Of a stretch of 64,000 bases of DNA, positions 28,282-59,759 are shown in pieces; position 1 is the stretch's first letter, and each line of letters opens with the position of its first letter. The notes under the pieces were generated by a model that was not told the origin of the DNA, searched no databases, and saw nothing but the letters and a program-made list of their open reading frames with translations. The stretch spans positions 1 through 64,000 of the forward strand of contig CAJXTB010000028.1 of the NCBI GenBank assembly GCA_913061235.1, given 5' to 3'. The DNA is from an uncultured Pseudomonadota bacterium (lineage in GTDB: Bacteria > Myxococcota_A > UBA796 > GCA-2862545). The translations under genes and the position numbers were made by a program.

Positions 28282-28369
28282 GCCAGGACAAAGAACGGTT
28301 TCGGGCTGTCGGGTCGTGTAGAACGTGGTGCTTCGAACCGTCGTGTCTTGGAGAACGTGGTGGTTCGGG

Positions 28370-28594
28370 AGTTCAGAAGTCAGAAGTCAGAAGTCAGGGC
28401 AGGCTTCTTGCGAAGCCGGCGTTGATGGGATTCTTGGCGATGGACGACGACGGTGGAAGGGCTTTGCGAGCATGTCGTGCTGGCGGAAAGACTGGCGACT
28501 TGGCCTGCGGCCTGCGCGCTTGCGACACTCTCAACCGGTCCGAAACGCAGGCGCGAAGCGTCTGTTCTGACCTCTGACCTCTGACCTCTGACAT
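28370..28594. repeat. Dispersed element with heptamer-repeat inverted arms, copy 1
   Basis: The left arm is a tandem heptamer (TCAGAAG, about four units from 28372) and the right arm its near complement (TCTGACC units, 28561-28592), so the ends can pair. Inside each arm sit conserved GCAGGCTTC...GCCGGCG and GAAACGCAGGCGC blocks. A second copy lies at 59528-59710. Both copies lie between the 3' ends of convergent genes. The rest of this 369-bp intergenic stretch shows no gene. Confidence 0.8.
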
Positions 28595-28650
28595 CCATCC
28601 CGCCGAGAATCCTGCCGAATCTCACAGCTCAACAGCCCACAGCGAAGTCT

Positions 28651-59491: not shown

Positions 59492-59527
59492 GTTCGTTGG
59501 GAGTGCTGGGTGCGTGGTAGTTCTAGA

Positions 59528-59710
59528 GTTCAGAAGTCAGAAATCAGAGGTCAGAGCAGGCTCCCTTCGGCGCCGGCGCAGGCAGCAGTGCACAATGGCT
59601 GGCAGCCAACTATTTTAAGGTCGTGTCCGGCCTCCACGTCGCTCGTGGCAGGACGAGAACGCAGGCGCAACGCGTCTGTTCTGACTTCTGACCTCTGACC
59701 TTTGACCTCC
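59528..59710. repeat. Dispersed element with heptamer-repeat inverted arms, copy 2
   Basis: The left arm has GTTCAGAAGTCAGAA followed by ATCAGAGGTCAGAG units, and the right arm TCTGTTCTGACTTCTGACC plus further TCTGACC/TTTGACC units. The internal blocks GCAGGCT, GCCGGCG and GAACGCAGGCGC-AA-GCG are shared with copy 1 at 28370-28594, while the centre differs and is shorter. It also lies between convergent genes. Confidence 0.8.
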
Positions 59711-59759
59711 GAAGCCCGACGGTTTCGGCCCCGCGCAGGCCGTCCCAAAACGGTCTTCG

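Follow-up and report, generated by a model that had tools for sequence, protein, structure and literature searches.

Heptamer-armed elements in the window and the host genome

The window analysed here is a stretch of 64,000 nucleotides (positions 1-64,000, forward strand, of contig CAJXTB010000028.1, assembly GCA_913061235.1) from an uncultured Pseudomonadota bacterium, whose genome (7.18 Mb, 99% complete) is called the host genome below. It contains two copies of a short element, one between an ABC-2 membrane gene and a DUF188 gene, the other between a YjdM/PhnA gene and an NAD(P)-binding gene (Pfam assignments). The initial annotation had placed these copies at 28370-28594 and 59528-59710, with heptamer arrays at both ends, differing centres, and convergent genes on either side. 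Positions, arrays and centres were found as described, and gene calls confirmed the convergent siting of both copies.

Copy 1 is covered by our end model from 28348 to 28615 (matches at 28348-28426, plus strand, and 28541-28615, minus strand) and copy 2 from 59505 to 59729 (59505-59583, plus; 59655-59729, minus); these extents represent the coverage of the model rather than true outer boundaries. The conserved unit thus reaches about 20 nt beyond the arrays. In both copies the left array is of the GTCAGAN type (units (G/T)TCAGAN) and the right array is its reverse complement, TCTGACN. From left to right, copy 1 comprises the left array (28372-28398, plus), a small hairpin of end type A (28399-28421, plus), a variable centre (28422-28546), a small hairpin of end type B2 (28547-28565, minus) and the right array (28566-28592, minus). 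The corresponding parts of copy 2 are located at 59529-59555 and 59556-59578 (both plus), 59579-59660 (centre), and 59661-59679 and 59680-59706 (both minus). Arrays were assigned by sequence and B2 hairpins by sequence class, and each centre was found by comparison to be unrelated to other centres. Both copies also share their internal blocks, which are GCAGGCT..GCCGGCG at the left end and GAA(A)CGCAGGCGC at the right end.

The pattern TCTGACNTCTGACNTCTGAC displays 106 forward and 110 reverse matches in the whole genome at up to two mismatches, versus 0 and 0 for the reversed pattern; hence, the arrays of the window are not a product of chance. The initial annotation counted two copies of the element, which proved too few, and its proposal of a profile model and genome scan was carried out. 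The covariance model of the ends (R1), which was built from 79 of the 88 ends in the fetched loci and with only 3 base pairs is chiefly a sequence model, identifies 115 ends in 62 loci across the whole genome (E <= 0.001). One further heptamer-armed locus, the third on the contig, lies outside the window at 81.7 kb. Exactly one plus end followed by one minus end, i.e. an inward-facing pair, is found at 44 of the 62 loci, outward-facing pairs are missing, and the median length of paired elements is 223.5 bp. At each end, some four GTCAGAN heptamers are accompanied by a small hairpin; information per alignment column is high over the four heptamers, weaker over some 20 nt outside, and continues for about 25 nt inward. 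A search for a shared centre returned 2 of 595 centre pairs at score 18, one of them a clear pair. The exact host array was not found in the 92 other genomes of our set of relatives, all from other genera, and an Rfam search gave no match in the window or in four element loci. At one locus (L058 2844-3159, host C4:217 kb) two elements apparently follow each other in tandem, and the right end of the first is decayed; this arrangement might reveal how elements become joined or nested. Another locus (L070 2978-3039, host C15:89 kb) has an array on one side only, which with nine units, most of them GTCAGAC, exceeds the usual four.

End types, hairpins and gene context

The elements have two distinct ends. 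Among the 36 elements with both arrays recognised, which form the basis of this polarity count, 31 combine one B end with one non-B end, 5 have two non-B ends, and none has two B ends. Random pairing of ends would give 18.1 same-class pairs versus the 5 observed, and never gave as few in 10000 trials; the rule defining the classes was written after inspection of the ends.

Compensatory change backs the small hairpins and not the long arms. The small hairpin was examined in 43 of the 44 distinct ends of the 23-nt class, a class holding 52 of the 88 ends; one atypical row (L052) was left out. For its nine pairs, 84.2% of cells are paired versus 62.5% after shuffling, with 73 double changes versus 21.4, and covariation amounts to 0.465 versus 0.098 (at most 0.134 for slid versions). 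Taken singly, the hairpins of the window differ. The left hairpin of copy 1 folds well (-12.5 kcal/mol, 7 of 200 shuffles as good) and belongs to the covarying class, the left hairpin of copy 2 is less marked (-10.1 kcal/mol, 27 of 200), and both right hairpins are unremarkable, each folding alone no better than shuffles.

Pairing of the arms into a long imperfect hairpin had also been suggested. Such a hairpin does fold on each strand and beats shuffles in both copies (z of -3.20 and -3.47), since inverted heptamers must pair, but compensation between the long arms was not found. At the spacer letters of the heptamers, 21 of 93 match the opposite arm versus 31.7 +/- 3.8 after shuffling with end type respected; an earlier shuffle had ignored the two end types, and with them respected there were still fewer matches than chance. 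Over the outer 24 nt, matching is 7.89/24 within elements versus 8.67/24 between elements. If anything, the spacer letters, being complementary less often than expected, indicate that perfect long palindromes are avoided. Pairing conservation, whose absence the initial annotation would have counted against a role of the element, is therefore missing between the long arms but present in the small hairpin of each end.

The genes neighbouring 48 array clusters, a subset of the 62 loci that includes both window copies, were read from the gene calls of our own codon-usage script instead of a published caller. One cluster overlaps a called gene; of the 47 classifiable ones, 23 lie between convergent, 22 between same-strand and 2 between divergent genes. 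For the 150 other adjacent gene pairs of the same stretches, these numbers are 17, 98 and 35 (Fisher p of 2e-7 for convergent and 0.002 for divergent pairs). Siting at gene 3′ ends is thus a strong bias and not a rule. The convergent siting of the window copies extends to the genome as a preference (23/47 versus 17/150), but not as a fixed arrangement, with 22/47 between same-strand genes; equally, the copies are not spread without regard to gene orientation, as their rarity between divergent genes displays (2/47 versus 35/150). Tolerance of insertion only there fits best among the explanations offered initially.

A role as bidirectional terminator is not borne out. A search for intrinsic terminators (G+C-rich stem plus T run) gave no site in copy 1 and one in copy 2, on one strand. 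The latter is a weak terminator-like hairpin at 59596-59608, on the plus strand only, in the variable centre of copy 2.

S23 genes in the host, its relatives and other phyla

In one element of the host genome (C7:277134-277644), the centre is longer and codes for a four-helix bundle protein, the sole match of the genome to PF05635 (E 4.4e-37; 0 of 14 control genomes positive). It is assigned to 23S_rRNA_IVP (Pfam, 8.3e-38) and TIGR02436 (NCBIfam, 1.2e-36), and is called S23 (23S rRNA intervening-sequence protein) below, a small protein familiar until now chiefly from insertions into rRNA genes; the family profile matches PDB entries 2gsc and 2rld. This coding element shares the same two end types with the other host elements.

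Matches to PF05635 are present in 32 of 93 genomes (relatives and host). Among 30 S23 loci from the host and its relatives, several are flanked on either side by short tandem arrays, whose units differ, and a number show no array, as judged by eye. The units are heptamers in the genomes G049, G014, G022 and G031, octamers in G089, and hexamers elsewhere. In G014, a member of the host's family, the heptamer is CAGTCTN, and CAGTCTNCAGTCTNCAGTCT has 39 and 31 matches on the two strands versus 0 and 0 when reversed. Inverted CAGTCTN arrays are paired in 25 of the 31 loci read (two of which are the same place), and their outer arms are conserved; the best S23 gene in G014 is bordered by a CAGTCTN array on one side and a related array on the other. 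G004 gave 24 hits, and there the S23 unit forms a repeat of 535-577 bp with sharp boundaries, 9-bp terminal inverted repeats and inverted hexamer arrays. Its copies are about 80-98% alike in unrelated flanks, several are internally deleted, and no target site duplication was obvious by eye in 10 of them. In the more distant G080, of the host's phylum, units measure about 1 kb and contain two diverged S23 genes in convergent orientation (L214-L222). The hexamer arrays on the two sides of these units share one direction, in contrast to the inverted arrays elsewhere.

G080 shares its genus with G084, which is without S23. The unit of G080 is absent at two of three orthologous sites in G084 and represented by a relic at the third; gain in G080 and loss in G084 give the same picture. 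At the site of L216, the G084 flanks are contiguous, genes and arrays are missing, and a short repeat-like CGCTGCCGCT is present. At the site of L218, about four hexamers stand between otherwise contiguous flanks, and the S23 unit is missing. At the site of L215, the flank matches are 186 bp apart, and this interval includes the right-end relic. A second dispersed repeat, some 60 bp long, occurs in the flank of L218 in G080 (query 1190-1250), where it adjoins one S23 unit, and at about ten places in G084. For the units of G004, a search for empty sites in G016, of the same genus, recovered no orthologous flank pair.

Between dispersed copies, S23 is under strong purifying selection. Across seven dispersed copies in G080, the two S23 genes are free of stops and have a median dN/dS of 0.07 and 0.16 (mean dS 0.51 and 0.46). 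For G004, comparison of L120 with the individual copies L116-L119 gives a dN/dS of 0.08-0.13, and comparison of L123 with L116-L119 a value of about 1. Judged from these sequences, such selection would be expected of a gene needed for spread; alternatively, every copy may have a role for its host.

Beyond the relatives, a scan of one genome per species returned at least 589 confirmed S23 stretches, and the best 80, with titles spanning more than a dozen phyla, were kept. Among these best 80 of at least 589, both flanks could be paired at 75 loci. Inverted repeats (local alignment of 200 bp upstream with the reverse complement of 200 bp downstream, score >= 16) flank S23 at 53 of these 75, versus 11 of 372 mismatched pairs, and are missing at 22. 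A period of 7 (>= 16/18) marks 14 of the 78 flanks upstream of S23 and 21 of the 77 on the downstream side, versus 8 of 535 control stretches from the same loci; other periods from 4 to 12 account for 0-3 loci per side. Complementary arrays on both sides, all of period 7, are present at 14 of 75 loci; the controls gave 8 of 736 for mismatched pairs and 2 of 268 for stretches elsewhere within these loci. None of the best 80 of at least 589 lies in LSU rRNA. A search for S23 in phages gave no match. Plasmids contributed 24 records with S23, mostly of cyanobacteria, several of them annotated within rows of same-strand genes. Annotated S23 genes of three plasmids (L238 1504-1863, L239 1495-1863, L234 1486-1851) have as their settings cas6-cas4, a place between two ribonucleotide reductase subunit genes, and a place two genes from a TrbI/VirB10 gene. 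A Pseudanabaena plasmid carries its S23 (IVP) gene among cas genes, a setting of IVP genes also mentioned in passages of a cas study (PMC3936711).

Relation to known systems and origin of the elements

Among known systems, the intervening sequences (IVSs) of 23S rRNA come closest to the host elements. According to passages of a study on Coxiella burnetii (PMC4990558), its IVS has a 28-bp terminal stem cut by RNase III at the first repeat, and tandem GACAGAT heptamers, variable in number between strains, adjoin its S23p ORF. The host family shares the S23 ORF between terminal inverted repeats, the long stem, and heptamers, which are GACAGAT there and GTCAGAN here (PMC4990558); unlike these IVSs, the host elements are dispersed between protein genes, mostly non-coding, and have two distinct hairpin-bearing ends. 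The same source calls function and origin of the S23 protein and the IVS unclear, and refers to suggestions of IVSs as leftovers of transposition or mobile elements and to an old proposal that the ORF served mobility (PMC4990558). An excerpt from a CPR study also reports 23S_rRNA_IVP in rRNA insertions (PMC11270868). The window copies have the complementary termini with heptamers, as inverted arrays, but are located between protein genes instead of in rRNA and carry no S23 ORF, which is found in the sister copy at C7:277 kb. They are classed here as related to, but not themselves, 23S rRNA IVSs, because the rRNA site and the ORF, two defining features, are missing.

Similar heptamers have been described elsewhere. 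In Geobacter metallireducens, dispersed multicopy arrays of 4-5 heptamers have the consensus MTYCTGA, near TCTGACN, and the 'global regulator' site classes are mostly paired and drawn as loops (PMC2700814). As far as compared by description, these differ from our reading in being taken as regulator binding sites or regulatory RNAs, in a text that does not mention 'S23' (PMC2700814). The TAACTGA repeats of Beggiatoaceae, Cyanobacteria and Bacteroidetes are likewise dispersed, intergenic tandem heptamers with patchy, lineage-specific distribution (PMC4679880), and their author considers mobility or a mobile repeat-binding protein. They differ in forming direct arrays, mostly just 5′ of start codons, with one inverted case, and their text, too, has no mention of 'S23' (PMC4679880). 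Going by these descriptions, both the Geobacter metallireducens and the Beggiatoaceae heptamers may be sequences of one kind with the host elements. A search of the open-licence PMC literature found no paper linking S23 genes to dispersed heptamer elements.

Classical short elements offer a further comparison. MITEs are short non-coding units with inverted ends, and eukaryotic foldback elements have inverted ends composed of tandem short repeats. Like MITEs, the host elements combine terminal inverted repeats with short non-coding units in many copies (44/62 loci with inward pairs); unlike MITEs, they have unrelated centres (2/595 pairs at score 18) and no parent transposase, and the sole coding copy carries S23.

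Based on this dataset, we consider it reasonably probable that the copies of the window are short non-coding members of a mobile family encoding S23, whose complete form has the S23 gene between two different ends. 23S rRNA IVSs are probably included in this family. Each end would consist of a short outer sequence, a short tandem repeat array (mostly of heptamers, inverted between ends) and a small imperfect hairpin. We hypothesize that an S23 oligomer recognises these repeat and hairpin ends as RNA or single-stranded DNA, and that S23 acts as the element-encoded factor for spread by bringing a host enzyme for cutting and joining or for copying. Non-coding copies would be moved in trans, now or once. 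Insertions would survive mainly at gene 3′ ends, those near gene starts being lost, and 23S rRNA IVSs would be members of the class that landed in rRNA helices. Several points count against this model. To our knowledge, no catalytic activity is known for S23. The presence/absence case comes from G080, whose hexamer arrays are not inverted, and one sister site already contains about four hexamers, so that arrays may in part be targets. The centres of the window-type copies are unrelated, unlike simple deletion derivatives. At 22 of 75 loci among the best 80 of at least 589, S23 is without inverted repeat, and some plasmid S23 genes stand in same-strand gene rows.

The dispersed copies might instead be selected regulatory or RNA-stabilising elements, such as terminators, 3′-end protectors or sites of a global regulator, one of which S23 entered by chance. 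The strong bias to gene 3′ ends, the covarying small hairpins and a long hairpin that folds better than shuffles would fit this, as does the interpretation of similar heptamer pairs in Geobacter metallireducens as regulator sites in passages of PMC2700814. We regard it as unlikely, however: chance does not explain the layout of S23 within arrays in many phyla (best 80 of at least 589), related genomes have other array sequences, the T runs of intrinsic terminators are missing, and the long arms are without compensation. Quite doubtful, too, is that tandem arrays are pre-existing targets or by-products into which an S23 unit inserts, and not part of the element. The arrays of G080 do run in one direction on both sides, and its sister sites have about four hexamers without an S23 unit (L218) or CGCTGCCGCT (L216); yet arrays are inverted and part of bounded units in the host, G004 and G014, inverted repeats flank 53 of 75 S23 genes among the best 80 of at least 589, and at the sister site of L216 the arrays are missing along with the genes.

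Two further readings assign the movement to another enzyme. In REPINs, which occur with RAYT, a variable centre is flanked by two inverted ends that contain small imperfect hairpins, and repeats of this kind moved by RAYT, a Y1 transposase, would account for an inverted pair of small imperfect hairpins and for unrelated centres. The host elements share the inverted, imperfectly palindromic ends, but differ in their two kinds of ends and tandem heptamers, and an S23 gene stands where RAYT would. PF01797 has no match in the 99% complete host genome, with 5 of 14 control genomes positive, and this candidate was disfavoured because Y1_Tnp is missing there. By these profile searches a Y1 transposase is an unlikely mover, and the REPIN-like reading as a whole appears highly improbable. 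Another enzyme is suggested by the likeness of S23 to Avd of diversity-generating retroelements (DGRs), which makes a reverse-transcriptase partner possible: S23 would act like Avd, and a resident reverse transcriptase would copy the structured RNA. S23 is weakly similar to DGR Avd/bAvd by profile, with the protein of G014 matching bAvd (7.1e-05) and DGR Avd (7.4e-07), both below cut-off. RVT_1 is present in 5 of 8 genomes, among them the host, G004, G014, G080 and G089. This retro-mobilised element seems improbable to us, as G049 (92% complete) and G022 (97%), both with S23 genes and arrays, gave no RVT_1 match, and the sole RVT_1 match in the host genome spans 91 of 205 profile positions; a template/variable repeat or a linked reverse transcriptase was not seen.

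Returning to the S23-encoding mobile family, a wider version is put forward tentatively, with somewhat more doubt than confidence: a bacteria-wide mobile class whose sole gene is the non-catalytic-looking S23, with lineage-specific repeat arrays and hairpins and perhaps a route through RNA or single strands, which would seed non-coding heptamer elements and count rRNA IVSs as landed members. Of 80 S23 loci (best 80 of at least 589), 0 are in rRNA, and their common setting is an inverted heptamer-armed unit. This setting, the differences in presence between sister species and the purifying selection make the old mobility proposal testable, and the model predicts non-coding derivatives wherever S23 occurs. 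The S23 family could also account for heptamer arrays that have so far had no explanation in several genomes. If the proposal is true, the 23S rRNA intervening sequences, whose origin has been unsettled for decades, would be the rRNA-landed members of an S23 mobile class.
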